From positions 620,001 to 684,000 of the forward strand of contig NZ_JAAIXY010000001.1 in the NCBI RefSeq assembly GCF_010894455.1: a stretch of 64,000 bases of DNA, in the 5' to 3' direction. A program made the position numbers and the translations under genes. Origin of the DNA: Myxococcus eversor. GTDB taxonomy: Bacteria; Myxococcota; Myxococcia; Myxococcales; Myxococcaceae. A model generated the notes under the pieces. The model was not told the origin of the DNA and searched no databases. It worked only from the letters and a program-made list of their open reading frames with translations. Positions within the stretch are counted from its first letter, which is position 1. Each line of letters opens with the position of its first letter. Below, piece after piece: positions 14,509 to 62,045 of this stretch.

Positions 14509-16116
14509 ATGGGGCCCCTGTTCGCCTACAGCCTCGTGCCCGTCCTCTCGGTGTCGCTCCTCTTGTGTTTCACCGCCGCCTTTCGCGGCCGGGACGCACG
14601 GGGGCTGACGCTGTACTGCCTGGCCACCGCCGTCTGGAGCGGCTCGCTGCTCTTGATATGCGTGCCCCGGTACGCGTGGCTGGGAGAGCGCTTCGCCGCC
14701 AGCGGGGCCTTCACCGCCGCCGCGTACCTCCATGTCGCGTACGACGTCACCCGGCAGCGCTCCTACCGACAGGTGGCGCTGGCCTACGCCGTGGCGGTGG
14801 TCGTCACCGGAGTGGGCGCGCTCTTCCCGGATGCGCTGTACGGACCGCTGGCGATGAAGCGAGGACCGCTGTTCTGGCCCGTCATCGCGCTGTCGGTCTC
14901 CGCGGCGTTGGTGCCGCTGCTGCACCTGGCCCGCTCCTATCCTCACGAGACGCCGGAGCGCCGGCCGCTGTTGCGCAGCCTGGGCATCGTCGGCGCGCTG
15001 GCGTACTCAGGCGGTCTGGGCACGGCGCTGCTGCTGTCGGGGGGCTACGCGCTGCCCTTCGGGATGTACGGCGTGCTGGCCTCGCTGCTGGTGCTGGTGC
15101 ACGTCGTCAACTCCCACCAGCCTCCAGGGGAGCGGCGGCTGCTGGAGCGCAGCCTCGTGTACTCGGCGATGGCGGCGGTGTTGTCGGCGGGCTTCCTCTT
15201 CGGGGTGCTGACGCTGATGGCGGGCAGCGGGCAGCCCTTCCTGCTCGAGTACCGGGTGGGCGCCTTCTTCCTGCTGGCGCTGGCGGCGCTCGCCTTCGAG
15301 CCCCTGCGTCAGGGCCTTCAGGAGTGGCTGGGCCGTCGACTGCTCAAGGGCCGCGCCACCGGCACCGAGCTGGTGGCGGCGCTGGCCGAGCAGGAGGCCC
15401 GCGCGGACCAGGCGGCGCGATTGGCGGAGCTGGGGCAGTTCACCTCCGCGGTGGCCCACGAGGTGCGAAACCCGCTGGGCGTGCTCGCCGCGCACCTGAA
15501 GCTCCTGGAACGCCAGGGCGTGGACGCGGACGCCGTCGCCGCCATGCGCGAGCAGATATCCCGCGCCGGGCACTTCGTGGACGAGCTGCTGCGCTACGGC
15601 CGGCCCCGACCGCTGGAGCTGCGCCGCGTGGACATGCTGGCCACCGTGGCGCTGGCGTACTCCACCGCGCGACAGGGATTGGGTGCGCTGGCGCCGGATG
15701 TCTCATTCGAACTTCCAGACGGCGAGCCTTTCGAGCTGGAGGCGGACCAGTCCCAGCTCTCGCAAGTGTTTGTCATTGTCCTGGAGAATGCCTTGCTCGC
15801 GCTGCGCGACACGCCCGCTCCTGCCTTGCGTGTGCGCTGTGAGCGCGTCGATGCGAGTCTCCAAATCTTCGTGGAGGACAACGGCCCCGGCATCCCCCCG
15901 GAGCTGCTCCCCCGGCTGTTCCAACCCTTCGTCACGGGGCGGCGTCGCGAGGGACCCCGGCCAGGAACAGGTCTGGGATTGGCGATTGCCCGGGGAATCC
16001 TGGAACGTCACGGAGCTTCGGTGCGGGCCAGCCGCTCCGAGTCCCTGGGGGGCGCGAGCTTCGTGTTGACGCTTCCACAATCGCAGCCTGTACCCCTATC
16101 CGCCGCCGCCTCCTGA
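14509..16116 (+). CDS. Membrane sensor histidine kinase
   Basis: The 535-residue protein has an N-terminal sensor region of about seven hydrophobic helices (residues 1-270, no large periplasmic domain). Next comes a HisKA domain with phospho-acceptor His317 in SAVAHEVRNPLGVL, and an ATPase domain with N box VIVLENALLALRD, G1 box EDNGPGIPPE and G2 box GTGLGLAIARG. It autophosphorylates in response to a membrane signal and passes phosphate to a response regulator, but none is adjacent, so it is an orphan. The palindrome ACTGTC-N8-GACAGT follows the stop. Confidence 0.88.
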   Translation: MGPLFAYSLVPVLSVSLLLCFTAAFRGRDARGLTLYCLATAVWSGSLLLICVPRYAWLGERFAASGAFTAAAYLHVAYDVTRQRSYRQVALAYAVAVVVTGVGALFPDALYGPLAMKRGPLFWPVIALSVSAALVPLLHLARSYPHETPERRPLLRSLGIVGALAYSGGLGTALLLSGGYALPFGMYGVLASLLVLVHVVNSHQPPGERRLLERSLVYSAMAAVLSAGFLFGVLTLMAGSGQPFLLEYRVGAFFLLALAALAFEPLRQGLQEWLGRRLLKGRATGTELVAALAEQEARADQAARLAELGQFTSAVAHEVRNPLGVLAAHLKLLERQGVDADAVAAMREQISRAGHFVDELLRYGRPRPLELRRVDMLATVALAYSTARQGLGALAPDVSFELPDGEPFELEADQSQLSQVFVIVLENALLALRDTPAPALRVRCERVDASLQIFVEDNGPGIPPELLPRLFQPFVTGRRREGPRPGTGLGLAIARGILERHGASVRASRSESLGGASFVLTLPQSQPVPLSAAAS

Positions 16117-16122
16117 AGTCAT

Positions 16123-16142
16123 ACTGTCGATATGTAGACAGT
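16123..16142. repeat. Inverted repeat ACTGTC-N8-GACAGT
   Basis: Perfect 6-bp arms (16123-16128, 16137-16142) flank 8 nt, just after the kinase stop and 60 nt before the ECF promoter. It may be a weak terminator for the kinase or a binding site acting on the ECF module. There is no T tract, which favours an operator (inference). Confidence 0.4.
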
Positions 16143-16202
16143 TTGCCTCCTGGGTTTGCGGATGTCGCGGGAGTGCCGTGGCTGTGAGGAAAAGAGGTTG
16201 TC

Positions 16203-16229
16203 GGCAACAAAGCAGACCTGCCGCGTTCT
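16203..16229 (+). promoter_or_regulatory. ECF-type promoter of module 1 (sigma/CHAT operon)
   Basis: GGCAAC (16203-16208) and CGTTCT (16224-16229) are 15 nt apart and 24 nt before the sigma-factor ATG. The same two boxes with the same spacing recur at 19875-19901 before the small gene of this module. This looks like an autoregulated extracytoplasmic-function promoter with an AAC-like -35 and CGT-like -10. Confidence 0.65.
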
Positions 16230-16253
16230 CTGGTGAATGGGAAGGAGGCGGCC

Positions 16254-16841
16254 ATGAGGGCAAGGCCAGGATTGAGGGTGGTGGAGCCTCCGTCTGGGGC
16301 GCCGGGGACGGATTTCGAGGTCTTCGCTCGCCAGTTCCAACCCGTATTGTTTGCCATTCTCAGGAAGTACTGTGTGGGTATCGAGCACGAGGTCGAGGAC
16401 CTGGTGCACGATGTGTTGTTGCGAGCGCTGCTCCAGTGGGAGCACCTCCGGCATTGGGAGTCATACAAGCAGCGCTTCTGGTTGGGGCGGGTCGCCGAGA
16501 ACTGCTTCCTGGACCGGTGCCGTCGCCGCAAGAGCGAGGCGGACCGGCTGCGCAACCTGCTCGAGCTGCATGAAGAGGCCGAGGACTTCGACGAAGCCGC
16601 GCAGGACGAGTTGTGGTGTCACGTCGGTGAAGACGACGTGAAGCGGGCGCTGACCTTTCTCAGCCCCAGACTCCGTTTGACCTTCGAGCTGTACCTCCAA
16701 GGGATGTCCTATGCACGCATCGCTCGTGAGACTGGCGTATCGCCGGGGACGGTGGGCGCGCGCCTGCATCACGCCCGGTTGGAGCTACGAGAGCTGCTGC
16801 GCGAGACGGCCGAGCGTCGACGCCGGGAGCGGCGGCGATGA
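16254..16841 (+). CDS. ECF RNA polymerase sigma factor, module 1
   Basis: The 195-residue ECF sigma factor has a sigma-2 region (FEVFARQFQPVLFAILRKY, then HEVEDLVHDVLLRAL and the -10 recognition stretch), an acidic linker (EEAEDFDEAAQDE), and a sigma-4 region with ALTFLSPRLRLTFELYLQG and the helix-turn-helix YARIARETGVSPGTVGARLH. I start it at ATG 16254, 5 nt after AAGGAGG; a GTG at 16233 would place the start inside the expected promoter. It overlaps the anti-sigma/CHAT gene by ATGA. It is a paralogue of the sigma factor at 20402. Confidence 0.9.
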   Translation: MRARPGLRVVEPPSGAPGTDFEVFARQFQPVLFAILRKYCVGIEHEVEDLVHDVLLRALLQWEHLRHWESYKQRFWLGRVAENCFLDRCRRRKSEADRLRNLLELHEEAEDFDEAAQDELWCHVGEDDVKRALTFLSPRLRLTFELYLQGMSYARIARETGVSPGTVGARLHHARLELRELLRETAERRRRERRR

Positions 16842-19828
16842 GCGCCGACTGCAAGGACCTGCCTCGCTTTCTCGACGGACAGCTGAGCGCGGAGGCGCAG
16901 TGCGGGTTCCGTCAGCACCTGGGCGGGTGTGAGCGCTGCGAGGCGCGCTTCCGCGAGACGCTGCAACTGGAGCTGCTGGCGCACCGGGCGCTGCCCTCGC
17001 TCGCGCCGCCCATGGCACCGCCGTCCGCGTCCAGGGAGCGCAAGCGCTGGTGGCCCCGGCGGGGGCAGGTCGGCTCCGGGTTCAGGGTGCTCGTCGCCTG
17101 TTTCGCGATGTTGTTGATATCTCCCAGCGCCAGCCACTGGAACGGTGACGACCTGGCCTGGCTGGTGAAGGACGGCCCGCGCACGCTGGAGGCGCGGGTG
17201 ACGTATCGCGCCGTGGATGCGCGTCATCAGCCCTATGTCCCGGACCGGGGTGGAGGCTGGGAGCGCCCCGCCGTCCCGTCGCTGCCGCTCCATGAGCTGT
17301 CTCGAATGGAGGCGCGGGGAGACCTGCATGGCATCGCCACGGCGTACCTGCTTCATGGCGCGCCCCGTCAGGCGCTGGCCTTCCTGAAGCGCCTGCCTCC
17401 CTCGGTGGACAGGGACTGTGACCTGGCGCTCCTGTCGCTGGAGCAGGCTCGGCAGGATGGGCCACTCGACACCCGGCATGCGCACCTGGAAGAGGCGCTG
17501 GAGCTGCTGTCGGAGGTGTTGCGCGTCGCGCCACGACATCCCCAGGCCCTATGGAACCGGGCGCTGACGCTGGCGGAGCTCGGGCTGACGCTCCAGGCGG
17601 CGGACTCGTTCGGTGAGGTCGCGAAGCTGGGAGAGCCGGGGTGGAGCGAGGAGGCCGCGGACCGGGAGCGCGCCCTGCGCGAGTCCACGCTCTCCCGCGG
17701 GCGGGCCTGGAAGGACGCCTTCGCGGCGACGCGGGACTTGCTCACGGATGCGTCAGCACCGCTGCCCGTGGCGGCGGTGAGGGACCATCCGGGCATCCTC
17801 CGGCTCGCCTTCTACGACGCGGTGCGCGCGGCGCCTCGGCGACAGGACGTGCTGCGGTTGCTCCCGCTGGCCCGGGCACTGGACGAGCGCTACGGGGGGA
17901 GCGTCCTCCAGACGTGGCTGGCTCGCGTGGCGGAGCGGGACTTCACGCGAAGGGGCTCCTTCGCGCGGAGGTATGCGCAGCTCGTGCTGGGGACGCTGTC
18001 GCCCTCGGGCGAGGTGATGGAGGAGCTGCGCCGCTCGGGGGAGGATGACCTCTACCTGGGCGCGCTCGTGCTCGCGGGCTTCGCGCGACAGCCGGTGGAT
18101 TCAGCGGCGCTGGTGCGATTGGCGCGGGCCTCCGAGGACCCGTGGATGCGGGTACTCGGAGAGCTGGAGCTGGCGCGCGCGGACCAACGGGAGGGCCGCT
18201 GGTGGAACGCCGAGCAACGACTGGTGGAGGCGTTGGACTCATGCCAGAAGCAGGGCCTGGTGTATCGCTGCCTGGGACTGGAGCAGGCGCTCACGGACCT
18301 GTACCTGGAGCTGCACCGACCCGCGGAGGCCTTCCAACACGCATGGAATGGCTGGAGCCGCGCGCAGGAGGCCCGCGAGTGGCGCTACGAGCAGGTGTTC
18401 CTCCAGGAACTGGCGGATGTGGCGCGCTACCAGCACTCCTTCACCAGTGCCCGGGCCTATCTCGAGGAGTCGCTGGTCCGCATGCCGGAGGACTGCGCGC
18501 AGCGCACGCATGTGCACAGCAACGTGGCCTTGCTGGAGTGGCAGCGGTTCCGCCCGGAGGCGGCGCGCGAGTCACTGGAGCGGGCGCTGGAGTGTGAGCG
18601 CCCCCTGGGGATGACGGGCGCGCGGGTGTTGTCGGAGCTGGCCCGCTTCCAGCCCCGGCCGCATGACGGACATTGGTTGCGCCGCGCCCTGGCGGACCTG
18701 CGACAGTCGGATGTCTCCCCGGGCCGCGAGGCGCTGCTGCTCGTCTTCGAGGGCCAGTTCGCGTTGGAGCAGTCGCGTGACACGGGGCAGGCGCTGCTCT
18801 GGCGAGGCGTGTCGATGGCGGAGCACCTGCCGGACAGCGTCGATGCGCGCAAGGCCCTGGCCTTCGGCTACTCCGCTCTGCTGTCCGAGGCGGGGCGTGC
18901 CGGGGCATGGAACGAGGCCCTGTCGTTGATGGCGCGCGAGCTGCGCGTCGAGCCCGTTCCCACGAGCTGTCTCCTGGCGGTGTCGCTCCAGCACGAGCGC
19001 ACCCTGGTGCTCGCGCGTGGACCCGATGGCGAGCTGAAGGGGGCGTATTCCACGGGTCGACGGGAGCCGCTGCGCGACGTTGCCTCGGGGCTGGTGCCCC
19101 AAGAACTCTTGAAGGAGTTGACGGGCTGCGAGCACGTGGATGTGTTGACCCGTCCGCCCGTGCACGGGCTCACCGGGTTGCTGCCGGACACGCTGGCGTG
19201 GAGCTATCGCGTGGGACGCGGTGGGCGCCCCACGCCAGTTCAGGATGGGGGCTCCAGGCATCTGGTCGTCACGGAAGTCGCGAGCCCGCCCGCGTTGAGA
19301 TTGCCGAAGCTGGGGGCACTGACCGCGCCGCGCGTACCGGACCCGTGGCGCGTGGAGCTCCGGGGTGGGGAGGCCACGCTGTCGCGCGTATCGCGAGAGA
19401 TGGCGGACGCGTCCGAGATTGAACTCCACACCCATGGGCTGTTCAGCGCCTCCATGTCGGATGCCTCGATGGTGGTGCTCGCGCCGGATGCGGATGGTGA
19501 CTACGCGCTGACCGCCGACATGGTCCGTCAGACGCGCTTGAAGCATGCGCCGCTGGTGCTGCTGGCCACGTGTGGCGCGGCGAGGACGGCGCCATTTCCG
19601 CACGAGTCCTACAGCCTGCCCGTGGCCTTCATCTCCGCGGGCGCGAGCGCGGTGCTGGCCGCCTCCGTGGAGATTCCCGACTCGGCGGGGGCCTTCTTCG
19701 AGAAGGTGCGTGAGCGCATCCGCGCGGGCACGCGCCCGTCCGTGGCGCTGAGGGATGCGCGCGCTCTCTGGCTGCGCGAGCACCCCGATGACGCACGGTG
19801 GCTGTCCCACGTCCTCCTCTTCGAGTGA
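16838..19828 (+). CDS. Anti-sigma zinc domain - TM - helical repeat - CHAT peptidase fusion, module 1
   Basis: The protein has 996 residues. Residues 1-40 are a zinc anti-sigma (zf-HC2/ZAS) domain with Cys5, His27, Cys31 and Cys34 (QHLGGCERC). A basic stretch (RERKRWWPRR) precedes one membrane helix at about 81-97. About 650 residues of TPR-like helices follow (for example QALWNRALTLAELGLTLQAA). The C-terminus is a CHAT caspase-like domain with the dyad His866 (HTHG) and Cys912 (LLATCGAAR). The likely role is to hold the upstream ECF factor at the membrane and release it on a signal handled by the TPR/CHAT part. By the positive-inside rule, TPR-CHAT would face the periplasm. The start (ATG 16838) overlaps the sigma stop. 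The fusion of anti-sigma and protease in one chain is notable. Confidence 0.88.
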   Translation: MSADCKDLPRFLDGQLSAEAQCGFRQHLGGCERCEARFRETLQLELLAHRALPSLAPPMAPPSASRERKRWWPRRGQVGSGFRVLVACFAMLLISPSASHWNGDDLAWLVKDGPRTLEARVTYRAVDARHQPYVPDRGGGWERPAVPSLPLHELSRMEARGDLHGIATAYLLHGAPRQALAFLKRLPPSVDRDCDLALLSLEQARQDGPLDTRHAHLEEALELLSEVLRVAPRHPQALWNRALTLAELGLTLQAADSFGEVAKLGEPGWSEEAADRERALRESTLSRGRAWKDAFAATRDLLTDASAPLPVAAVRDHPGILRLAFYDAVRAAPRRQDVLRLLPLARALDERYGGSVLQTWLARVAERDFTRRGSFARRYAQLVLGTLSPSGEVMEELRRSGEDDLYLGALVLAGFARQPVDSAALVRLARASEDPWMRVLGELELARADQREGRWWNAEQRLVEALDSCQKQGLVYRCLGLEQALTDLYLELHRPAEAFQHAWNGWSRAQEAREWRYEQVFLQELADVARYQHSFTSARAYLEESLVRMPEDCAQRTHVHSNVALLEWQRFRPEAARESLERALECERPLGMTGARVLSELARFQPRPHDGHWLRRALADLRQSDVSPGREALLLVFEGQFALEQSRDTGQALLWRGVSMAEHLPDSVDARKALAFGYSALLSEAGRAGAWNEALSLMARELRVEPVPTSCLLAVSLQHERTLVLARGPDGELKGAYSTGRREPLRDVASGLVPQELLKELTGCEHVDVLTRPPVHGLTGLLPDTLAWSYRVGRGGRPTPVQDGGSRHLVVTEVASPPALRLPKLGALTAPRVPDPWRVELRGGEATLSRVSREMADASEIELHTHGLFSASMSDASMVVLAPDADGDYALTADMVRQTRLKHAPLVLLATCGAARTAPFPHESYSLPVAFISAGASAVLAASVEIPDSAGAFFEKVRERIRAGTRPSVALRDARALWLREHPDDARWLSHVLLFE

Positions 19829-19874
19829 GCGCCTGTCCAGGCGCGCCTCGAGGGTTGTGACGTTGGAGGTTTCC

Positions 19875-19901
19875 GGCAACAAGCAGGACGTCGTGCGTTC
19901 T
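19875..19901 (+). promoter_or_regulatory. Second copy of module 1 ECF promoter, before small gene
   Basis: GGCAAC (19875-19880) and CGTTCT (19896-19901) are separated by 15 nt, identical in boxes and spacing to 16203-16229, and flanked by related bases (GGTT upstream, AACAA after the -35). It lies 71 nt before the ATG of the small Pro-rich gene, so that gene is probably under the same sigma factor. Confidence 0.65.
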
Positions 19902-19971
19902 ATGGCTTGAGGGCCGCCGGTGCCCCGCATCCTGCGGGAGTGAGGACGGTGGCCCCCAGGAGCCGTGCGAC

Positions 19972-20163
19972 ATGACGAGCTGCATGAGCGAAGCGAAGCC
20001 GGCGGAGGAGACCCCTGCCCTGCAAGGGCCCGCGGTGAGCGGGGCGGTTCCGAAGAAGGCGCCCGTGGTGGAATCCGACGCGCCGGCAGACGCCGCCGTC
20101 CCCCCGCCGGAGTCGGCGCGTCCGGATGTGAGAGACCCTCCGCCCACCGGTCCCCCGGGCTGA
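19972..20163 (+). CDS. Small proline-rich protein, module 1
   Basis: The 63-residue protein starts with ATG 19972, with CAGGAG 9 nt upstream (Met5 is an alternative start). It contains 15 prolines, many Ala/Glu/Asp, no hydrophobic segment and no signal peptide, and ends RDPPPTGPPG. It looks disordered. Support for a real gene comes from its ribosome site and an upstream copy of the module's ECF promoter. It also has a counterpart of matching size, composition and promoter distance in module 2. The function is unknown; it may be a regulator or a target of the CHAT protease, though that domain is predicted to lie on the other side of the membrane. Confidence 0.6.
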   Translation: MTSCMSEAKPAEETPALQGPAVSGAVPKKAPVVESDAPADAAVPPPESARPDVRDPPPTGPPG

Positions 20164-20306
20164 GCGAGTCACTCGCGACAGCGCGAGGTCCTGGCCGACG
20201 CTCCGTCCGTGGGACCTCCAGCCGGGTGTTGGAAGCGGCGGACGTGGCGTCCTCCAGGTGGCGGGTCGACTCCATCCTGGGGGCTGCAACGGTGTCGGGG
20301 AGGCGG

Positions 20307-20336
20307 CGGAAACCGGCGTGGTTGCGTCGGTTTCCG
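20307..20336. repeat. Inverted repeat CGGAAACCG-N12-CGGTTTCCG
   Basis: A perfect 9-bp inverted repeat (20307-20315 and 20328-20336) lies just upstream of the module 2 ECF promoter. GGTTTCCGG also occurs at 19868-19876, overlapping the module 1 element, so the sequence may be a shared regulatory site. Alternatively it is a terminator stem for the small gene (no T tract). Confidence 0.4.
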
Positions 20337-20346
20337 GACGGCGACC

Positions 20347-20371
20347 CAAGGATTCCGGGTGGCTGCGTTTC
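20347..20371 (+). promoter_or_regulatory. ECF-type promoter of module 2 (sigma/CHAT operon)
   Basis: CAAGGATTCCG (20347-20357), 5 nt, CTGCGTT (20363-20369). All 18 fixed bases and the spacing recur at 24015-24037 before the small gene of module 2. The -10-like GCGTT is shared with module 1, while the upstream box differs, as expected for a different ECF specificity. It lies about 30 nt before the sigma ATG. Confidence 0.65.
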
Positions 20372-20401
20372 GAGTGGGCGTGGAAGGAGGGCGAGGGGTC
20401 G

Positions 20402-20998
20402 ATGAGGGACCATCGCAATGCCTCGGTGAAGCGATTCACCGTGGCCTACAGTGCCGCCGTGGCACACGAAGGCTTTGAAGAGTTCGCTCAGCGCGTCAGG
20501 CCCATGCTCGTGGCATTGGCGAGGCGTCTGTGCGGCCAGGGTGGTATCGACCCGGAAGACCTGGCGCAGGAAGCGCTTGTCCGGGCGCTCGTCCACCATG
20601 CCACCTTGTCCGCGCAGCCAGAGCCCGTGTACCGGGCGTGGTTGTGCCGGGCGCTCACCAATCACTTCCTGGACCAGTGCCGCAAGCGCAGGACGGAGCT
20701 GCTGGAGCAGGAGCGCCGGGACATCCGGCTCGTGCGCGAGGACGTGGAGTCTCCCGACGCCAGGACGGGAGAGATGTGGGAGCGCATCACCGACGCGGAC
20801 CTGGTCCAGGCCATCTCCCGGCTGCCCAATCCGCGCGTGCGTGAGGCGTTCGAGCTGCACGCCACGGGATTGCGCTACCGGGCCATCGCCCAGCGCATGG
20901 GGGTTCCCGAGGGCACCGTGGGGAGCTGGCTGTTCCAGGCGCGCAAGGAGCTGCGCGAGCTGCTGATGCCGCTGACGGACGGCGGAGGGCTGGTATGA
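20402..20998 (+). CDS. ECF RNA polymerase sigma factor, module 2
   Basis: The 198-residue ECF factor has sigma-2 with FEEFAQRVRPMLVALARRL and DPEDLAQEALVRALVHH, a polar linker, and sigma-4 with ISRLPNPRVREAFELHATG and the helix-turn-helix YRAIAQRMGVPEGTVGSWLF. The start at ATG 20402 (MRDHRN) has GAGGGG upstream and lies after the promoter element; the longer frame from 20258 would run through it. The stop overlaps the next ATG (ATGA). It is similar in plan to the factor at 16254, and the two probably arose by module duplication. Confidence 0.88.
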   Translation: MRDHRNASVKRFTVAYSAAVAHEGFEEFAQRVRPMLVALARRLCGQGGIDPEDLAQEALVRALVHHATLSAQPEPVYRAWLCRALTNHFLDQCRKRRTELLEQERRDIRLVREDVESPDARTGEMWERITDADLVQAISRLPNPRVREAFELHATGLRYRAIAQRMGVPEGTVGSWLFQARKELRELLMPLTDGGGLV

Positions 20999-23997
20999 GC
21001 CCTCCGTGTCATCGGTTGTATCTGTTCCTGGATGGCGAGTTGCCCCCGGTCGACGAGGAGAACTTCCGCCACCACCTGGCCCGCTGCGCGATGTGCGCTT
21101 CCGGGTTGCATGAGGCGATGCAGTTGGAGCTGCTCGGCTTCCAGGCGCTCCATCCGGAGGGGGATCCTCTCGAAGATGAGGTGGAGGAGGAGGCGCCGCG
21201 CCATGAGTCGCCTCCGTCGTGGCCCGCGCCGCCCTGGCCGAAGCCCGTGTGGCACCAGCGGCTGCGCGCGGTGTTGCCGGCGGGCTGGTGGGCCGCGGGC
21301 GCGGTGGCGCTGGCGGCGGGGCTCCTGGTGCTGGTGCTGGCCGTGCCGCGCGCCCGGGACACGCCGCCAGAGGTGTGGACCGCGCATCCGGCGCAGCGCG
21401 CGCTGGAGGCCCGGGTCGCCTATGCGCGGGCGGACGGGTATCGGCACTACGTACCGATGCGCGCCGGGCCCGAGACTCCCGTGGTGACGACGCCCCTGCC
21501 GCTGCGCGAGCTGGCGGAGCTGGAGGACCGGGGAGATTTGCACGGCATCGCCGCCGCGTACCTGGTGCGACGGGACGTGCGGCAGGCGGCGGACTTCCTG
21601 CGGAGGACTCCCGCCTCACTGGACCGTGACAGCGACCTGGCGGTCATCGCGCTGGAGCAGGGCCGCCGCGAGGACGCGCTGGAGTTGTTGGAGGCCGTGC
21701 TGCGCAAGTCGCCGGACCATCCGCAGGCGCTGTGGAACCGGGCGCTGGTGCTGCGGGAGATGGGGCTGACGCTCCAGGCGGCGGAGGCCTTCGACGTGGT
21801 GGCGAAGCAGGGCGAGGCCGGGTGGAGCGAGGAGGCCCGGGTGCGCTCCCAGGCGCTGCGCAGCGAGACGCTCCTTCGCTCGCGGGACTTCCACGACGCG
21901 CGGGCGGCGGCGCAGAACCTGGCCACGCTGGAGGGCGCGCGGCTTCCCTTGGACGAGGCCCGCCGCTTCCCGGGCGTGGTGCGGCTGGCCTTCTATGACG
22001 CCCTGAGGGCCGCGCCCACGCGGGATGCGGCGCTGCGACTGCTGCCGCTCGCGGCGGTGCTGGACGAGGTGCAGGGCGGCGCCACGCTGCGAGACACCGT
22101 GCACGCCGTCGCGCGCGCGGACTTCCAGCGACGCGGTCCGCTGGCGCGCGAGTACGTGCGGCTCTTGCGCGGCGAGCACCCCACGCCAGAGGTCTATCTG
22201 GAGACGCTGCGGCGCTCCGGCGAGGAGGACCTGTACCTGGGCGCGCTCGTGTCGCGTGACGCCGTGGCGAGCCACGTGGATGACTTCGTGCGCATCGCCC
22301 GGGCGGGAGGAGACCCCTGGTTGGTGTTGCTGGCCGAGCGCGAGCTGTCCGTGCGCGAGGAGCGCGAGGGGCAGTGGTGGAAGGCGGAGCAGCGGCTGCG
22401 CGCGGCGCTGGCGTCGTGTTCGGGGCGGGGGCTGGCCTATCGGTGCGCCACGCTGCGACGACGGCTGGCGGACCTCTTCGTGCGCCTGCACCGTCCGGCC
22501 GACGCGCTGGAGGAGGCCCGTGAAGGCTGGCGCCTGACGCGAGAGCTGGGCGAGTGGAACCTGGAGCAGCAGTTCCTCCAGGAGATGGCGCAGATCGCCC
22601 GCTATCGCCACAGCACGGCGAGCGCGAGGGCCTTCCTGCGCGAGTCGCTGTCCCGCATTCCCGATGACTGCGAGCAGCGCACGTACGCGCACCGCAACCT
22701 CGCCACGGTGGCCTGGTCCGACTTCCGTCCGGTCGAGGCCCGCGAGGAACTGGAGCAGGCCACCCGCTGCGGACGGCCCCTGGGCATGTCGGGCGCGTGG
22801 GTGCTCTCGTATCTGGCCCGCCACGGCGCGGAGGTCCGCGACGAGGATCTGCTGCGGCGCACGCTCGACGAGCTGCGGCGCGGCTCGCGCACGGCGGGAG
22901 AGCTGGCGATGCTGACCTTCCTGGAAGGGCAGTTCATGCTGGAGCGCGAGCGCGCGTCGGGCCGGGAGCTGCTTCATGGCGCCATCGACGCGGCGGAGTC
23001 GCTCCCTCGGGACGTGGACGCTCGCAAGGCGCGAGGCTTCGCGTACGGCGTGCTGGTGAGCGACGCGGGCCGCTCGGGTGTCCAGGAGCAGGTGCTGGAG
23101 CTGATGGGACAGGCGCTGCGCGTGCCCGCTCCGGAGCGCTGTGTGCTGGCGGTGTCCGTGGACCACGAGCGCACGGTGGTGACAGTGCGCGACGCGGAAG
23201 GGGCGCTGGCGGGGGTCTATGACGACAAGCGCTCCACGCCCCTGCATGGGACGGCGGAGGGCCTGGTTCCGCCGCGCCTGGTGGCGGCGCTCCGGGGCTG
23301 TGAGCACGTGGACGTGCTGGCCCTGCCGCCCGTGCATGGCCTGCCCGGATTGCTCCCCGCGGACCTGGCGTGGAGCTATCGCGTGGGCCGGAGTGGGCCC
23401 ACTCCCGAGGCGCACGGCCCTGTTGGGCACCACCTGGTCGTCACGGGGGTAGAGGCGCCGCAGGCGCTCGGGCTGGAGAAGCTCTCTCCCCTGGAAGGCC
23501 CCCGCGTGCCGGACCCGCTGCGCGTGGAGCTGCGCGGCGCGGGAGCCACCCCGTCGCGCGTGCTGCGGGAGATGGCCCACGCGCGCGAGATTGAAATCCA
23601 CACGCACGGCCTCTTCAGCCCGGAGCTGTCAGACGCCTCGTTGCTGGTGCTCGCTCCGGAAGAGGACGGGCGGTACGCACTCGCGGCGGCCCAGGTGCGG
23701 GAGCAGCCGCTGCTTGGCGCGCCCCTCGTCCTGCTCGCGGCGTGTGGGGCCGCTCGCGCCGCGCCGTTCCTGCATGAGCCCGTGAGCCTTCCGGTGGCTT
23801 TCATCGAGGCGGGGGCACGCACGGTGCTCGCTTCCACCGGTGACATCCCCGACACCGCGGGGCGCTTCTTCGAGTCCGTGCGCGAGCGCATCCGCGCGGG
23901 GGCCCCGGCCTCCCGGGCTCTGCGTGATGAGCGCCTGGCGTGGCTTGCCCGCGAGCCGGCCGCGACGTGGCCCGCCCAGGTCCTCCTGTTCGAGTGA
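20995..23997 (+). CDS. Anti-sigma zinc domain - TM - helical repeat - CHAT peptidase fusion, module 2
   Basis: The 1000-residue paralogue of 16838-19828 has the same domain order. Its zinc anti-sigma domain has Cys5, His27, Cys31 and Cys34 (HHLARCAMC) at identical positions to module 1. An acidic linker is followed by a membrane helix at about 98-117, then TPR-like repeats (QALWNRALVLREMGLTLQAA), then a CHAT domain with His871 (HTHG) and Cys917 (LLAACGAAR). Long blocks match module 1, for example RGDLHGIAAAYL and VHGLPGLLPADLAWSYRVG. The extracytoplasmic part is expected to sense or process a partner and control the upstream sigma factor. The catalytic pair is intact, so active proteolysis is plausible but unproven. 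Confidence 0.88.
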   Translation: MSPPCHRLYLFLDGELPPVDEENFRHHLARCAMCASGLHEAMQLELLGFQALHPEGDPLEDEVEEEAPRHESPPSWPAPPWPKPVWHQRLRAVLPAGWWAAGAVALAAGLLVLVLAVPRARDTPPEVWTAHPAQRALEARVAYARADGYRHYVPMRAGPETPVVTTPLPLRELAELEDRGDLHGIAAAYLVRRDVRQAADFLRRTPASLDRDSDLAVIALEQGRREDALELLEAVLRKSPDHPQALWNRALVLREMGLTLQAAEAFDVVAKQGEAGWSEEARVRSQALRSETLLRSRDFHDARAAAQNLATLEGARLPLDEARRFPGVVRLAFYDALRAAPTRDAALRLLPLAAVLDEVQGGATLRDTVHAVARADFQRRGPLAREYVRLLRGEHPTPEVYLETLRRSGEEDLYLGALVSRDAVASHVDDFVRIARAGGDPWLVLLAERELSVREEREGQWWKAEQRLRAALASCSGRGLAYRCATLRRRLADLFVRLHRPADALEEAREGWRLTRELGEWNLEQQFLQEMAQIARYRHSTASARAFLRESLSRIPDDCEQRTYAHRNLATVAWSDFRPVEAREELEQATRCGRPLGMSGAWVLSYLARHGAEVRDEDLLRRTLDELRRGSRTAGELAMLTFLEGQFMLERERASGRELLHGAIDAAESLPRDVDARKARGFAYGVLVSDAGRSGVQEQVLELMGQALRVPAPERCVLAVSVDHERTVVTVRDAEGALAGVYDDKRSTPLHGTAEGLVPPRLVAALRGCEHVDVLALPPVHGLPGLLPADLAWSYRVGRSGPTPEAHGPVGHHLVVTGVEAPQALGLEKLSPLEGPRVPDPLRVELRGAGATPSRVLREMAHAREIEIHTHGLFSPELSDASLLVLAPEEDGRYALAAAQVREQPLLGAPLVLLAACGAARAAPFLHEPVSLPVAFIEAGARTVLASTGDIPDTAGRFFESVRERIRAGAPASRALRDERLAWLAREPAATWPAQVLLFE

Positions 23998-24014
23998 CGT
24001 GGCGCAAGCGCCTT

Positions 24015-24039
24015 CAAGGATTCCGACCCCCTGCGTTCT
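24015..24039 (+). promoter_or_regulatory. Second copy of module 2 ECF promoter, before small gene
   Basis: CAAGGATTCCG (24015-24025), 5 nt, CTGCGTT (24031-24037), then CT. Every fixed base matches 20347-20369. It is 70 nt from the end of the -10 box to the ATG of the small gene, almost the same as the 71 nt in module 1. Confidence 0.65.
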
Positions 24040-24108
24040 GAAGGTGACGCTTGCGTCCACGCGACGGCGCGTCGTGCCTTGAAACGTCGAACAGGGGGGG
24101 ATTCACAC

Positions 24109-24294
24109 ATGAGGAACTCAAGCTCGGGGAAGCCCGGTACGGACATCATCGCCCAGGAGATTCCGGACCCACCGCCGGAGCGGGACAGGGGCCTGCGCGC
24201 CCCTGGGGAGGAAGCCACGCCCGTCTTCTCGGCGAAGCTCTCCATCCCCCCGCCTCCTCCGGCGGAGTCGTCAACCGTGAGCGACGAGCGCTGA
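24109..24294 (+). CDS. Small proline-rich protein, module 2
   Basis: The 61-residue protein starts with ATG 24109, 8 nt after a G-rich ribosome site. It has 12 prolines (EIPDPPPERD, LSIPPPPPAES), an acidic and Ser-rich tail, and no membrane or signal segment. It shares size, composition and a DPPP motif with the small protein at 19972, and sits at the same place relative to its own ECF promoter. A strong terminator follows at 24351. The function is unknown; it is probably co-regulated with, and may act in, the sigma/CHAT circuit. Confidence 0.6.
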   Translation: MRNSSSGKPGTDIIAQEIPDPPPERDRGLRAPGEEATPVFSAKLSIPPPPPAESSTVSDER

Positions 24295-24350
24295 AACAAG
24301 TAACAGCCGTTTCATGGCTCTCCCGAATTACGAGAGAGTTGCATGTTTTT

Positions 24351-24387
24351 CGGGGCGTTTCCGGGAGGAGGCGCCCTGAATTTTTTT
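24351..24387 (+). terminator. Rho-independent terminator closing module 2
   Basis: CGGGGCG (24351-24357) pairs with CGCCCTG (24372-24378, one G-T pair), followed by AATTTTTTT (seven T at 24381-24387). It is the clearest intrinsic terminator in the window and marks the end of the two-module block. Confidence 0.75.
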
Positions 24388-25018
24388 GAACAAGGAGGCT
24401 CAAGGAAAAAGGCTCGAAACGTATTTCAGAAGGAAGAGGGCGGCGACGGGGGAGTACGGCTGCTTCGACTGCATCGCGACAGGGGGGAGTGATGTTCCGG
24501 AGTGACGCGCGGGGCCATGGGGACTCCCATGGGATGTGGGCACCGGAGGATGGGCGTGGTTCGGGCGGGGGCGCCTGGGGGGCGCTGGTGGAGGGGGGCG
24601 AGCGGGAGTCGGGTGGGGGGAGTCGGGTGGGGGGGGCTTTCTTCGGGGGGGATGAGCAGGACCAGGAGGGGCCGCGGACCGAGCTCCTCCTGGCTGACGA
24701 CCTGGATTTTCAGATCGCCAGTTATTGAGATTCACGGCGCGAGGGTTTGGGGAAACGCATCACGCTGGCGGCTGACGTCGGGGGACGGCAGCAACCTCAT
24801 CGGATGGCGTCGTAGTGGTGGGGGAGACGACGCGCGGGACTTGACGGTCGCGGGGGGGCGTCATCCGAGAGGGCCAGGTGCGGCGGACGAGGGGGCAGGT
24901 GGCAGGACGCGCCCCAGGTCCTCCGCCTCCGGAGTCTCCAAGGGCTCCGGGGGTGGGGGACTTCGGCGAAGGGCATGCCGGCGCTAGGGTGGGGCTCCAA
25001 CTCGACTCGGAGTCCTTC
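24388..25018. other. Gene-poor, G-run-rich stretch with one doubtful small ORF
   Basis: There is about 630 nt without a convincing gene. The start is AT-richer (to about 24450); the middle (24560-24650) is full of GGGG runs. A possible ORF at 24492-24728 (78 residues, ATG preceded by AGGGGGGAG) encodes a Gly-rich protein ending TELLLADDLDFQIASY, but the Gly content simply mirrors the G runs. No homology is recognised. The last 60 nt precede the peptidase gene. Confidence 0.4.
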
Positions 25019-27394: not shown

Positions 27395-29041
27395 TCAGTC
27401 AGGGCTCACCGTCCCGCTGACATCCGCCCAGGTGAGGCCGAAGCGCGCGAGGTACTTCTTGAGGCGGTCCGCATCATTGACGCTCGCCTTCCTCGCGCGG
27501 GACTGGGAGAACAGCACGCGTCCGGCTTCGGACAGGGAGCGCACGCCCTGGCAGACGCCCAGCACGTCCGCGAGCTGCACGCGGTCGAACCGGTCCAGCT
27601 CATGGGCCAACGTCTCTCCCAGCACCTCGGCGACGCGGTCTCCAGCCCCCACGGATTGCAACGGCCCGGGGCGCGAGCCGCCCGTGCGCCACTGCGCGCG
27701 CAGCCGCTCCAGTTCCTCGTCCACCACGTCGCGGGTGATGCGGCCTCCGGGCGCGAGCGTGGCCATGCGCAGCACCGCGGCGTTGAGGTCCCGGAAGTTG
27801 CCCGACCAGCGCGCATCGGGCGAGGTGGCGAAGCGCAGGAATCGCTCCTGGGCCTCCTTGTTGAAAGTGATGCGCGCGCCCATCGCCTCCGAGGCCTTGT
27901 CCAACTCGTAGAGGAGATTGGGCGGGATGTCCTCCGGCCGCTCCCTCAGGGCGGGCAGTCGGAAGGTCCACAGGTTGATGCGCGCGAGCAAATCCTCCCG
28001 GAAGCGCCCCTGCTCGACGTCCACCAGCAGGTCCCGGTTGGTGCCGGCGATGAGCTGGAAGTCGCTCTCGACTTCCCGGTCCGAGCCGACAGGCAGGAAG
28101 CGCTTGTCCTCCAGCGCCCGTAGCAGCATGGCCTGCTCGTCCGCGCCCAGCTCCCCAATCTCATCCAGGAACAGCACGCCGCCGTGGGCCTGTCTCAGCA
28201 GTCCCGGCCGGTCCTGGAGCGCTCCGGTGAACGAGCCCTTCACGTGGCCGAACAGCGCGGACATGGCGCCGTCGCCGCGCAGCGTGGCGCAGTTGAGGTC
28301 CACGAACGGTCCGCTGACGGTGCCTCGCGACTTCTTCAACGTGTAGATGCGCCGGGCGAGCTGCGACTTGCCCGCGCCGGTGGGGCCAGTGATGAGCAGC
28401 GGCGCGCGCGATTGGGTGGCCACCTGCTCGATTCGCTCGATGATGCGGTTGAAGGCGGCGTTGCGCGTGTCGATGCCGGCCTTGAGGAAGGACAGGCCCT
28501 CGCGCTGCTCCTGTTGGAAGCGCGTGGCCAGCGTGTCGTAGCGCGACAGGTCCAGGTCGATGAGCGTGTGGGTCCCCGCGCCGGTGCCCGTCTTGTCCCG
28601 GCCCGCGGGGGAGAGCTGCACCAGCCGGCCTGGGATGAGCCGGCTCTCCACCAGCAGGAACATGCAGATCTGCGCGATGTGCGTGCCCGTGGTGATGTGG
28701 ACGAGATAGTCCTCCTCCTCCGGGTTGAAGGGATACGCGCGCACGTAGTCGAGCAGCGCGCCGTACGTCTCCTCCAAATCCCACGGGTTTCGGATGTCCA
28801 GTGGCGTGGCGCGCACGGACGTCTCCGGAGACACCTGCCGGATGTCTCCCACCAGCGTGGACGCGAGCCCCGCCGCGTTCGATGGGTGCAGCAGCTCCAG
28901 CCGGTGAACCACGAGGTCATCCTGCTGGCACAGCGCCACCGTGGGCCGCCACTTGCTCCACCGCCCGGGGCCCTGCCCCGTGTCCAGCGTCGTCCCGAGC
29001 ATCCCGAGGACGACCGTCTGCTTCGCTCGCGTCTTCGCCAT
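27395..29041 (-). CDS. rtcR: Sigma-54-dependent regulator of RNA repair, RtcR
   Basis: The 548-residue enhancer-binding protein has an N-terminal RtcR/CARF-type sensor domain (VVLGMLGTTLDTG, HITTGTHIAQICMFLL). Next is an AAA+ domain with Walker A GPTGAGKSQLA, the sigma-54 contact loop in the form GSFTGA, and Walker B GGVLFLDEIGEL. The C-terminal DNA-binding region contains LGVCQGVRSLSEAGR. RtcR activates rtcBA at a sigma-54 promoter when its sensor binds a nucleic-acid-derived ligand (known from E. coli). It is divergent from rtcB with the matching promoter between them. E. coli RtcR has 532 residues. Confidence 0.92.
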   Translation of the reverse strand: MAKTRAKQTVVLGMLGTTLDTGQGPGRWSKWRPTVALCQQDDLVVHRLELLHPSNAAGLASTLVGDIRQVSPETSVRATPLDIRNPWDLEETYGALLDYVRAYPFNPEEEDYLVHITTGTHIAQICMFLLVESRLIPGRLVQLSPAGRDKTGTGAGTHTLIDLDLSRYDTLATRFQQEQREGLSFLKAGIDTRNAAFNRIIERIEQVATQSRAPLLITGPTGAGKSQLARRIYTLKKSRGTVSGPFVDLNCATLRGDGAMSALFGHVKGSFTGALQDRPGLLRQAHGGVLFLDEIGELGADEQAMLLRALEDKRFLPVGSDREVESDFQLIAGTNRDLLVDVEQGRFREDLLARINLWTFRLPALRERPEDIPPNLLYELDKASEAMGARITFNKEAQERFLRFATSPDARWSGNFRDLNAAVLRMATLAPGGRITRDVVDEELERLRAQWRTGGSRPGPLQSVGAGDRVAEVLGETLAHELDRFDRVQLADVLGVCQGVRSLSEAGRVLFSQSRARKASVNDADRLKKYLARFGLTWADVSGTVSPD

Positions 29042-30535: not shown

Positions 30536-30605
30536 GCTATTTTGGGAAGGGTGTCAGAATGCCGGCGCGGGGCCGTGAGGCGTGGGAAAAGCAGGAGAGA
30601 CACAC

Positions 30606-31622
30606 ATGCTGCGCATCGATGGTTCCAGGGGAGAGGGCGGCGGCCAGGTGCTGCGCACGTCGCTGGCGTTGTCGCTGGTGACGGGGACGCCTTTCACGAT
30701 GACGAACATCCGCGCGGGCCGCGCGAAGCCGGGCCTGTTGCGACAGCACCTGACGGGCGTGAAGGCCGCCGAGGCGGTGGGCGCGGCGGAAGTCTCGGGC
30801 GCGGAGTTGGGCTCGAAGGAGCTGACGTTCCGTCCTCGTGCGCTGACCGCGGGCAACTATCACTTCGCGGTGGGCACGGCCGGCAGCGCGACGCTGGTGT
30901 TGCAGACGGTGCTTCCCGCGCTGCTGGCCGCGAAGGAGCCTTCTACGCTGATGTTGGAGGGTGGGACGCACAACCCGGCGGCGCCGCCGTTCGACTTCCT
31001 CACCCGCGCGTATCTGCCGATTCTGCGCAAGCTGGGCCCGGACGTCGCGGCGACGCTGGAGCGTCCTGGCTTCTTCCCCGCGGGTGGCGGGAAGTTCCGC
31101 GTGGACGTGCGGCCGGGGTCGATGAAGCCCTTCTCGTTGCTGGAGCGCGGGCGGGTGCTGCGCCGCGACGTGAAGGCGGTGGTGGCGATGATTCCCTTCG
31201 ACGTGGCGAAGCGGGAGATGGAGACGGCGGGCGCGCTGCTCAAGTGGCGCCCGGACGAGCTGCGGGTGGAGGAGCTAAAGCGCACCACGGGCCCGGGCAA
31301 CGTGCTGGTGGCAGAGGTGGAGAGCGAGCACGTCACCGAGGTCTTCACGGGCTTCGGAGAGCGAGGCAAGCGCGCCGAAGTCGTCGCGGAGGAGGTGGCC
31401 AGCGAGGTGAAGCGCTACCTGGACGCGGAAGTACCGGTGGGCGAGCACCTGTGCGACCAGCTGCTCCTGCTATTCGCGCTGGCGCGAGGCGGAGAGTTCC
31501 GCACGCTACCGCTGGATGGGCATTCGGTGACGCAGCTGGAGACGATGGCGCACTTCCTCGATGTGAAGGTGGACGTGCGCGAGGTGTCTCGCGAGGTGCG
31601 CGAGGTGGTGGTGCGCGGCTGA
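30606..31622 (+). CDS. rtcA: RNA 3'-terminal phosphate cyclase RtcA
   Basis: The 338-residue cyclase converts RNA 3'-phosphate to 2',3'-cyclic phosphate using ATP. Family markers are the N-terminal DGSRGEGGGQVLRTSLALS, GGTHNPAAPPFDFL, RPGFFPAGGGK, and the AMP-accepting His in VGEHLCDQLLLLF. ATG 30606 (MLRIDGS) has GGAGAG upstream; the longer frame adds 8 residues without family match. It follows rtcB after a hairpin-containing 184-nt spacer and probably shares its transcript. Confidence 0.94.
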   Translation: MLRIDGSRGEGGGQVLRTSLALSLVTGTPFTMTNIRAGRAKPGLLRQHLTGVKAAEAVGAAEVSGAELGSKELTFRPRALTAGNYHFAVGTAGSATLVLQTVLPALLAAKEPSTLMLEGGTHNPAAPPFDFLTRAYLPILRKLGPDVAATLERPGFFPAGGGKFRVDVRPGSMKPFSLLERGRVLRRDVKAVVAMIPFDVAKREMETAGALLKWRPDELRVEELKRTTGPGNVLVAEVESEHVTEVFTGFGERGKRAEVVAEEVASEVKRYLDAEVPVGEHLCDQLLLLFALARGGEFRTLPLDGHSVTQLETMAHFLDVKVDVREVSREVREVVVRG

Positions 31623-60080: not shown

Positions 60081-60350
60081 ATGAACGCGAAGGCTCTTGC
60101 GGCGATTGTCGGCACCCTGTCCCTGGCCTCCCTCGCCACCGGCTGTGCGTCCACCAAGTCGGCGGAGGCCACGCCGGCCGCCGCGGAGAAGGGCGCCGAG
60201 GGCTCCTGTGGCGCCGCGAAGACGGACGGCAAGGGCGCCGAGGCCGGCTGCGGCGCGCAGAAGCAGGAAGGCGCCCCCGCGGCGACTCCGGAGAAGGGCG
60301 CCGAGCACGGCTGCGGCGCTGGCGGCTGCAACGGCCAGAAGAAGGAGTAG
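60081..60350 (+). CDS. MNIO-modified Cys-repeat peptide precursor (RiPP), with lipobox
   Basis: The 89-residue protein has a signal sequence ending LASLATGC, so Cys22 may be lipidated. The mature part is Lys/Glu/Ala/Gly-rich and contains three KGAExxCGA repeats (37-45, 51-59, 72-80) with Cys43, Cys57 and Cys78, plus a final Cys83. This matches precursors modified by DUF692 oxidases (HvfA/BufA type, EGxCG motifs), whose cysteines are converted to heterocycles or related groups that bind copper. The DUF692 and DUF2063 genes follow. The apparent lipobox is unusual for such precursors. Confidence 0.78.
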   Translation: MNAKALAAIVGTLSLASLATGCASTKSAEATPAAAEKGAEGSCGAAKTDGKGAEAGCGAQKQEGAPAATPEKGAEHGCGAGGCNGQKKE

Positions 60351-60465
60351 TCCGCGGCGCACCGGGGGCGGGTGAAGGCACCGGCCCCCTCGCGCCGACC
60401 TCCGGGCGGTGGGAAGAGCACCTCCCGCCGCCCGGTTCATTTGTCTCTCGGGGAGGTGGCTGACC

Positions 60466-61317
60466 GTGGTGGCGACGACGTACGCGCGAAGACACGGCCT
60501 TTCGCCCCTGGGCGTGGGCATCGGGCTGCGCCGGAGCTTCTACGAGGAGCTGCCCCGCACCCAGCGGACGCTCGACTGGGTGGAGATCATCCCGGAGAAC
60601 TTCCTCTCGCTCGGAGGCCGTTCCCAGCGCGCGCTGGACGCGTGTGCCGAGCGCTGGCCGGTGTTGCCTCACGGAGTGGGGCTGGATATCGGCGGGCCGG
60701 ACGCGCTGGACGAGGACTACGTCACGGGGCTCGCGGCGCTCGTGAAGCGCGTGGACGCGCCGTTCTTCTCGGACCACCTGTGCTACTCGCGGCTGGGCGG
60801 CGTGTACCTGCATGACCTGCTGCCGCTGCCCTTCACCGAGGCCGTCGTCGAACACGTGGTGCCTCGCGTGCGCGAAGTCGTGGCGCGCGTGGGCCGGCCG
60901 TTCCTGCTGGAGAACCCGAGCTACTACGCGAACATGCCCGGCGGCACGCTGTCGGAGGCGGACTTCCTGCGGCACGTGGTGGAGGAGGCCGACTGCGGGC
61001 TGCTGCTGGACGTGAACAACGTCTACGTCAACGCGCGCAACCATGGCTATGACGCCCGCTCCTTCGTGGATGCGCTGCCGCTGGAGCGCGTGGTTCAGAT
61101 CCACCTCGCGGGGCACACCACCTATCCGGACGTCATCATCGACACGCACGGCGACCGCGTCTGCGACGACGTGTGGTCGCTGTACCGCTACGTGCTTGCG
61201 CGCACCGGGCCGGTGTCGACGCTCATCGAGTGGGACCAGGACATCCCGTCGATGGCGGCGGTGCTCGACGAGGCGGACCTGGCGCGCGCGGCGCTGCGAG
61301 AAGGGGCGGGGCGATGA
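60466..61317 (+). CDS. DUF692 multinuclear non-heme iron oxidase (MNIO)
   Basis: The protein has 283 residues from GTG 60466 (GGAGG 9 nt upstream; the frame extends further but lacks a ribosome site). The TIM-barrel metal-site residues of the family are visible in PFFSDHLCYS, FLLENPSYY, LLLDVNNVYVNARNHG, VQIHLAGH, DTHGDRV and LIEWDQDIPS. MNIO enzymes use two or three iron ions to oxidise Cys in a RiPP precursor. It works with the DUF2063 partner encoded next (ATGA overlap) on the peptide encoded just upstream. Confidence 0.9.
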   Translation: MVATTYARRHGLSPLGVGIGLRRSFYEELPRTQRTLDWVEIIPENFLSLGGRSQRALDACAERWPVLPHGVGLDIGGPDALDEDYVTGLAALVKRVDAPFFSDHLCYSRLGGVYLHDLLPLPFTEAVVEHVVPRVREVVARVGRPFLLENPSYYANMPGGTLSEADFLRHVVEEADCGLLLDVNNVYVNARNHGYDARSFVDALPLERVVQIHLAGHTTYPDVIIDTHGDRVCDDVWSLYRYVLARTGPVSTLIEWDQDIPSMAAVLDEADLARAALREGAGR

Positions 61318-62045
61318 AGCCTTCGCTGAAACACTTCTTCGACAGCATGGGGAGCTACCTGGCGCGGCCGGGCGGCGAGTCGTTGGAGCGGCTCTACACC
61401 GCGCATCCGGAGTGGCGCGCGCCCTCTTCGCGCGTGTCCATCTACGGCGACTTCGTGCGAGGCCATGTCCGCACCGCGCTGGAGAAGCTCTTCCCGTTGC
61501 TGCGAGGCGCGGTGGGCGCGGAGGCGTGGCTTGCGCTGGTGGAGGACTTCACGCTGACGCGGCCCGCGCGGCACCATGAGGTGAACCGCGTGGGCGAGGG
61601 CTTCCCGGCCTTCGTCGCGGACGCGGTGTCGTCGCGAGGGCTTCCTCCGTACGCGCCCGCGCTGGCGCGCTTCGAGTGGTCCGATTTCGCGGTGTTCGTC
61701 TCCCAAGCGGAGGCGCCCGCGCCGGTGGAGCGCCTGACGCCGAATCCCACGTTGGTGGTGCTGGAGCAGCCGTTCCGAATCTGCGCCTGGGTGCGCGCTC
61801 GGGGCCAGGGCGCGGCGCGGGGGCCCGAAGCAGGAGACGAGCTGGCGCTGCTCTGGCGTCATCCGGAGCGCCTGGTGACGTACTACCAGGAGGCCACGCC
61901 GGCCGCGCTGCTGGTGCTGAAGATGGCGGTGGAGGGACTGTCCGCGTCGGACGTGGCGACGGCCACGGGAATGCCCGAGGCCGACATCCTGGAGTCCGTG
62001 GCGCGATTGTCTCGCGAGGGCCTGGTGCTGGCGCCCCTCGCGTGA
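61314..62045 (+). CDS. DUF2063 partner protein (HvfC/BufC-like) of the MNIO
   Basis: The protein has 243 residues from ATG 61314, overlapping the oxidase stop. The N-terminal DUF2063 helical domain contains SRVSIYGDFVRGHVRTALEKLFP and EDFTLTRPARHHEVNRVGEGF; the C-terminal part is a helical wHTH-like domain (SASDVATATGMPEADILESV). It is thought to recruit the precursor to the oxidase. No DoxX or further transport gene follows, so the cluster seems to be precursor-oxidase-partner only. Confidence 0.88.
   Translation: MKPSLKHFFDSMGSYLARPGGESLERLYTAHPEWRAPSSRVSIYGDFVRGHVRTALEKLFPLLRGAVGAEAWLALVEDFTLTRPARHHEVNRVGEGFPAFVADAVSSRGLPPYAPALARFEWSDFAVFVSQAEAPAPVERLTPNPTLVVLEQPFRICAWVRARGQGAARGPEAGDELALLWRHPERLVTYYQEATPAALLVLKMAVEGLSASDVATATGMPEADILESVARLSREGLVLAPLA

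Follow-up and report, generated by a model that had tools for sequence, protein, structure and literature searches.

Two tandem modules in the window (the whole stretch of 64,000 nucleotides of Myxococcus eversor DNA analysed here) each consist of an ECF sigma factor gene and a fusion gene coding for about 1000 residues. The two fusion proteins are paralogues of DdvA and have an architecture that has already been described. We put the probability at about four in five that these are autoregulated ECF sigma/transmembrane anti-sigma modules of the DdvS/DdvA kind, in which the TPR-CHAT regions would serve as periplasmic sensors. The first-pass annotation had held that no described pathway displays this architecture; the structure search led instead to DdvA of Myxococcus xanthus, which pairs with the ECF factor DdvS, and the solved cryo-EM structures 8ROT and 8RW5 rule that claim out. 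A literature search for CHAT together with anti-sigma factors recovered only the Craspase paper and missed those on DdvA, so that claims of absence drawn from it are weak.

The genes for ECF sigma factors 1 (16254..16841, +; 195 aa) and 2 (20402..20998, +; 198 aa) both match Pfam Sigma70_r2 and Sigma70_r4_2 above the cut-offs, and each overlaps, by ATGA, the gene of a DdvA-type anti-sigma protein: protein 1 (16838..19828, +; 996 aa), which combines a zinc domain, a membrane helix, TPRs and a CHAT domain, and protein 2 (20995..23997, +; 1000 aa). The sequence GGAAGGAGG precedes the ATG of ECF sigma factor 1. Coordinates, frames and sigma domains agree with the two modules of the original reading, as does the zinc motif HxxxCxxC, which is formed by His27, Cys31 and Cys34 in both proteins and is seen in 37/37 full-length relatives. 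At the level of Pfam, protein 2 passes the zf-HC2 cut-off (30.1 bits versus 22.2), with protein 1 slightly below it (21.5). Protein 2 also exceeds the cut-off for CHAT (PF12770; 53.4 bits versus 24), covering only the C-terminal part of the profile (125-268 of 289). For protein 1, Pfam gives no CHAT hit up to E = 0.1, so its CHAT assignment rests on alignment to the neighboring protein 2 (55% identity), through which the domain becomes visible. The intact His/Cys pair proposed earlier likewise holds: His866 (19433..19435, +) and Cys912 (19571..19573, +) of protein 1, placed by alignment, and His871 (23605..23607, +) and Cys917 (23743..23745, +) of protein 2 occupy columns that are invariant in 61/61 aligned relatives.

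The relationship to DdvA emerges from both structure and sequence. An AlphaFold model of protein 2, built with 48 family sequences (pLDDT 87.6, pTM 0.82), has DdvA (8ROT) as its best structural match: Foldseek places 8rw5 and 8rot_A at the top (E = 6e-48 and 5e-47), and VIA, with the model range 119-1000, aligns 868 residues with DdvA at Z 46.1, rmsd 3.6 and 37% identity, the runner-up being Csx29 with Z about 21. In phmmer, protein 2 matches full DdvA at 1.1e-130 and, at 2.6e-6, the zinc domain of DdvA that was solved on its own (8rlz). The ddvA gene itself was located in another genome of the genus, immediately 3' of an ECF gene, its product agreeing with DdvA at 100% of 299 residues; because the same genome also has a separate relative 64% identical to protein 2, the latter is not ddvA itself. 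A 2024 structure paper reportedly describes DdvA as a dimer whose TPR-CHAT lies in the periplasm and whose active site is incomplete. Control of a CBASS-CRISPR island, a DdvS trait, was sought among seven window proteins with PADLOC, where only the RtcR (CARF-AAA-HTH) protein matched well; such control is a regulon trait of ddvA and not of the protein family. That RtcR regulator (27395-29041) has strong PADLOC and Pfam matches. Elsewhere in the window, an ORF at 30582-31622 resembles, as judged by eye, RNA 3'-phosphate cyclase, and a small Cys-rich ORF with two more ORFs behind it (60081-62045) looks, again by eye, like a bufferin-type peptide operon.

A survey of 21 genomes, the own genome and 20 relatives, detected family matches in 13/13 genomes of the genus, with 5 to 10 in each (pieces and split parts counted), and in 0/8 genomes from other families of the order. 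A scan of named-species genomes, which misses some relatives because it was seeded on two TPR peptides, yielded at least 74 loci from 80 of 88 confirmed stretches, nearly all in Myxococcota and one filed as Comamonas. The matches listed take three forms: 37 are full fusions, 42 lack the zinc domain (10 of these start within 10 nt of a contig edge and are possibly cut), and 25 are short zinc-domain proteins; the alignment of 61 relatives omits 18 of the 42, the 10 edge cases among them. The neighborhood search suggested by the first-pass annotation, for zinc anti-sigma, TPR and CHAT domains in one chain beside ECF genes in other genomes, bore out its reading, as an ECF gene lies directly upstream of all 37 listed fusions. 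The overlap is 4 nt in 32, 8 nt in four and 1 nt in one, counts that depend on our picking start codons by nearness to the sigma end. Retention of both the ECF gene and the zinc motif in 37/37 full-length zinc-domain relatives shows that this architecture was not read into the sequence by chance.

The membrane helix is predicted at residues 99-117 of protein 2 (21289..21345, +; helix at 100-115 in the AlphaFold model) and, from hydropathy and flanking charge, at residues 78-96 of protein 1 (17069..17125, +). The single helix originally proposed for each protein stands out in protein 2, with a hydropathy of 2.46; in protein 1 hydropathy taken by itself leaves it marginal, at 1.77 against 1.74 for another stretch. 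Each of the 37 fused relatives has an N-terminal hydrophobic stretch whose N side carries the greater positive charge; among relatives without the zinc domain, 21/24 have the stretch and only 13/24 the positive-inside charge. Apart from Cys5, Cys31, Cys34 and Cys917, every cysteine of protein 2 belongs to one of the pairs 475/484, 716/769 and 559/592. The first two pairs are invariant in 61/61 aligned relatives, and Cys559 and Cys592 are found in 46 and 57 of them, respectively, a pattern that would suit an oxidising compartment. Charge and conserved cysteine pairs together lend strong but indirect support to a predicted periplasmic location of the TPR-CHAT part of both proteins.

This topology bears on what the CHAT domain might do. 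The invariance of His871 and Cys917 extends down to relatives of 36% identity, His869 is present in 60/61, and the His and Cys motifs also occur in the 18 relatives lacking the zinc domain that were omitted from the alignment. Such constraint fits a working protease and may equally reflect a binding site. If CHAT cuts, any target must be periplasmic, namely its own stalk or a partner; cleavage of either the own chain or a periplasmic partner is possible judging from the residues retained.

A candidate partner is offered by a third gene that accompanies many of the modules. In 44/79 CHAT loci a same-strand called gene of <300 aa lies within 260 nt, leaving 35/79 without one, although among these 35 module 1 of locus L019 and module 2 of locus L017 do carry the small gene. 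With few exceptions, the third genes code for lipoprotein-like proteins or proline-rich peptides of 53-86 aa. PPP is present in 36/44 third genes versus 28/203 other genes of 50-260 aa (Fisher 2.6e-18, the counts being dependent since the genes are orthologues), and in only 2/7 of the lipA cluster of third genes. When 1130 ORFs were searched with a core profile of the lipB/lipC lipoproteins (10 rows), every gene recovered at E<0.1 lay immediately 3' of a CHAT gene: L067 and the lipB/lipC relatives came first, followed by L070 (2.7e-7), the gene after ddvA (3.4e-4) and L095 (0.012). The match to L094, at 0.58, is not significant, and profile search did not join the lipA lipoproteins to the third-gene family. 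The AlphaFold model of the lipoprotein family has pLDDT 61 and gave no Foldseek match at E up to 0.001. The size of one small third-gene cluster is not trustworthy, because proline-rich sequence was compared with low-complexity filtering off.

In the window, the third-gene position is taken by two small proline-rich genes, which have only the proline motif in common with the lipB/lipC family. Small gene 1 (19972..20163, +; 63 aa) ends in RDPPPTGPPG and is found in relatives; small gene 2 (24109..24294, +; 61 aa, EIPDPPPERDRG) is found in five relatives. Both look coding by Ka/Ks, which is 0.32-0.45 for the first in six valid pairs (all pairs with L018 and L021 left out) and 0.26-0.78 for the second in 14 computable of 15 pairs. 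No signal peptide is seen in the products of these genes or in that of the gene after ddvA, so that a periplasmic role of the window third gene is a guess. Behind module 2, a further ORF of 78 aa (24492-24728), ending in DDLDFQIASY and without a Pfam match, is kept in L019, L021, L026 and L029, with mixed evidence of coding (Ka/Ks 0.31-1.08 over 10 pairs). In the region 3' of ddvA (L097:9441-12354), a member of the third-gene family (110 aa) is accompanied by a C25-type peptidase (Peptidase_C25, 24.5 bits versus 23; motifs SLSHG and ACFGA) and a CBASS cyclase.

Parts that are fused in the window are split elsewhere. At 18/18 split loci, a CHAT gene without the zinc domain ends 1995-2078 nt upstream of a short zinc-domain gene that overlaps a sigma gene, on the same strand; one of these loci lies at a contig edge, with the CHAT gene present by its 3' end only. 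An opposite-strand gene of 335-390 aa sits between the CHAT and sigma genes in all 18, and the sole such gene tested (L031:8749-9759) is Cupin_8/JmjC-like (Cupin_8, 153.5 bits). One split locus (L074), filed as Comamonas sp. KCTC 72670, nests among Myxococcaceae and is mislabelled, contaminated or transferred. That parts joined in one chain at other loci occur here as linked neighbors suggests that zinc domain and TPR-CHAT work together, although linkage by itself is no proof. A copy in the own genome with an inner TGA (C40) was considered as a broken gene or pseudogene and rejected owing to the recurrence of the short form: a short zinc-domain-TPR protein (275-290 or 465-477 aa) at 18 split loci therefore represents a stable form. 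On the tree of the family, the fused form needs three changes and the split form one.

The strongest rival to a DdvA-like sensor is a proteolytic switch, in which an active periplasmic CHAT, on receiving a signal, would cut its own flexible stalk or the third-gene product and so start regulated proteolysis that frees the sigma factor. The invariant His and Cys, with their motifs in the unaligned relatives, speak for it, as do a fold whose nearest neighbors after DdvA are the active clan CD proteases Csx29, separase and gingipain, the third gene beside many modules, and the 18 loci at which TPR-CHAT is a separate protein beside a shortened zinc-domain protein. Yet DdvA has the same His and Cys, while its active site is reportedly incomplete in the 2024 structure; moreover, the partial Pfam CHAT match, the lack of a known cleavage site or substrate, and the lack of a visible signal peptide in the third-gene products, at ddvA as well as in the window, all weigh against it, and we regard such a switch as unlikely. 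Slightly more doubtful is its elaboration into a periplasmic caspase-type signalling system. There, an active CHAT would cut or bind a dedicated third-gene product, either a lipoprotein or a proline-rich peptide with a D-P-P-P-x-G-like motif, and this event would act through the membrane to switch an ECF sigma factor. Fused and split forms would both have evolved, with the split protease acting in trans on the shortened zinc-domain anti-sigma protein.

The two modules might instead be degenerate paralogues, redundant copies without a functioning sensor retained through recent duplication. The multiple matches in each of the 13 congeneric genomes and the failure of protein 1 to reach the Pfam cut-offs for zf-HC2 and CHAT would be in keeping with this. 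However, both frames are open with all key residues retained, and on the tree the window proteins belong to separate clades, whose members are again found in tandem in Myxococcus and Pyxidicoccus; decay of this kind is thus very improbable. In that tree DdvA forms a long row filling 35% of the columns, and its place is unsure. Least probable of all is direct cutting of the zinc domain or the sigma factor by CHAT, which draws on their union in one chain and on type III-E CRISPR, where the protein cleaved by a TPR-CHAT protease is linked to an ECF factor, but which founders on the helix that separates the zinc domain from TPR-CHAT in 37/37 fused relatives and on a cysteine pattern suited to an oxidising compartment: CHAT and sigma would lie on opposite sides of the membrane, so a periplasmic TPR-CHAT would not directly cut its cytoplasmic partners, and the type III-E analogy of the first-pass annotation, which overlooked this topology and which involves a cytoplasmic protease and a cytoplasmic regulator, is not directly transferable.

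Returning to the DdvS/DdvA-like reading, promoter-like boxes suggest how the modules may be controlled. Box P1, CGGCAACAA-N12-GCGTTCT (16202..16229, +), lies before the gene of sigma factor 1, and box P2 (19874..19901, +) before small gene 1 and module 2; both are candidate promoters identified by pattern match, conserved in two close relatives and weaker in three. The pattern CGGCAACA-N10-16-GCGTTCT, drawn from P1 and P2 themselves, has two exact matches in the window, where none is expected, and the same two in the 11.4-Mb genome, against none in the reversed control. With two mismatches allowed, four further genome sites appear versus one in the control, and the pattern was built on its own two matches, so that no wider regulon is shown. 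A possible, weak -10 element, CGTTCT (24034..24039, +), precedes small gene 2, with GCGTTCT or CGTTNT conserved in relatives; CGTTCT occurs three times on the + strand of 16001-24500 versus about two by chance, all three upstream of genes of the module set. That the two operons are preceded by near-identical boxes suggests that the modules may regulate themselves and each other. Autoregulation is further suggested by the precedent of the ddvS promoter, which requires DdvS, with loss of DdvA leaving DdvS active (PMC4374960).

Taken together, we infer sigma binding, a periplasmic location of both proteins, a signal, autoregulation and cross-talk within the following scheme. Each anti-sigma protein would use its N-terminal zinc domain to keep the sigma factor bound on the inner side of the membrane, and its large TPR-CHAT part would act as a sensor in the periplasm. 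A periplasmic signal would act on TPR-CHAT, possibly with the third-gene product involved, and the ensuing change would travel via the single helix of a probable dimer to free the sigma factor, which could then drive transcription of its operon and of the small gene next to it. Beyond the known DdvA system, the family context, that is, the split forms and the third gene, is most useful. The signal inactivating DdvA was given as unknown in 2015 (PMC4374960), and the 5-10 matches per Myxococcus genome, the natural splits and a third gene that recurs at ddvA offer candidates for its path; the DdvA design itself is not limited to one CBASS-CRISPR island.

Among known systems, DdvS/DdvA of M. xanthus (PDB 8ROT, 8RW5, 8RLZ) is the closest: as in the window, an ECF gene overlaps a gene coding for zinc domain, single helix (predicted in the window proteins), TPR and CHAT, the fold is common over 868 residues at 37% identity, and the CHAT His and Cys are present. 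The window differs in having two modules in tandem, in the CHAT motif HTHG where DdvA has ATHG, with the first His replaced by Ala, and in a third cysteine pair, DdvA having only the first two in the phmmer alignment. Its small proline-rich genes occupy the position that at ddvA belongs to the 110-aa gene, with the C25-like peptidase and the CBASS cyclase beyond it. Csx29, the TPR-CHAT protein of Craspase in type III-E CRISPR, shares the TPR-CHAT fold (Z from 17.8 to 20.7 for its top-scoring entries) at about 11-12% identity, whereas the window proteins have no CRISPR effector chain, carry the zinc domain in the chain and are predicted to be periplasmic. The gene calls of the window include no evident gRAMP/Cas7-11 gene, which type III-E Craspase has beside TPR-CHAT. 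Separase and gingipain R, clan CD peptidases, share the C-terminal caspase-type fold (Z about 16-17) at 10-15% identity, and both are without an anti-sigma domain. Finally, for the ECF54 group, PMC8999054 predicts proteolytic control without an anti-sigma factor and describes CHAT genes nearby; an ECF factor near CHAT is common to both cases, the difference being that in the window CHAT shares its chain with a zinc anti-sigma domain.
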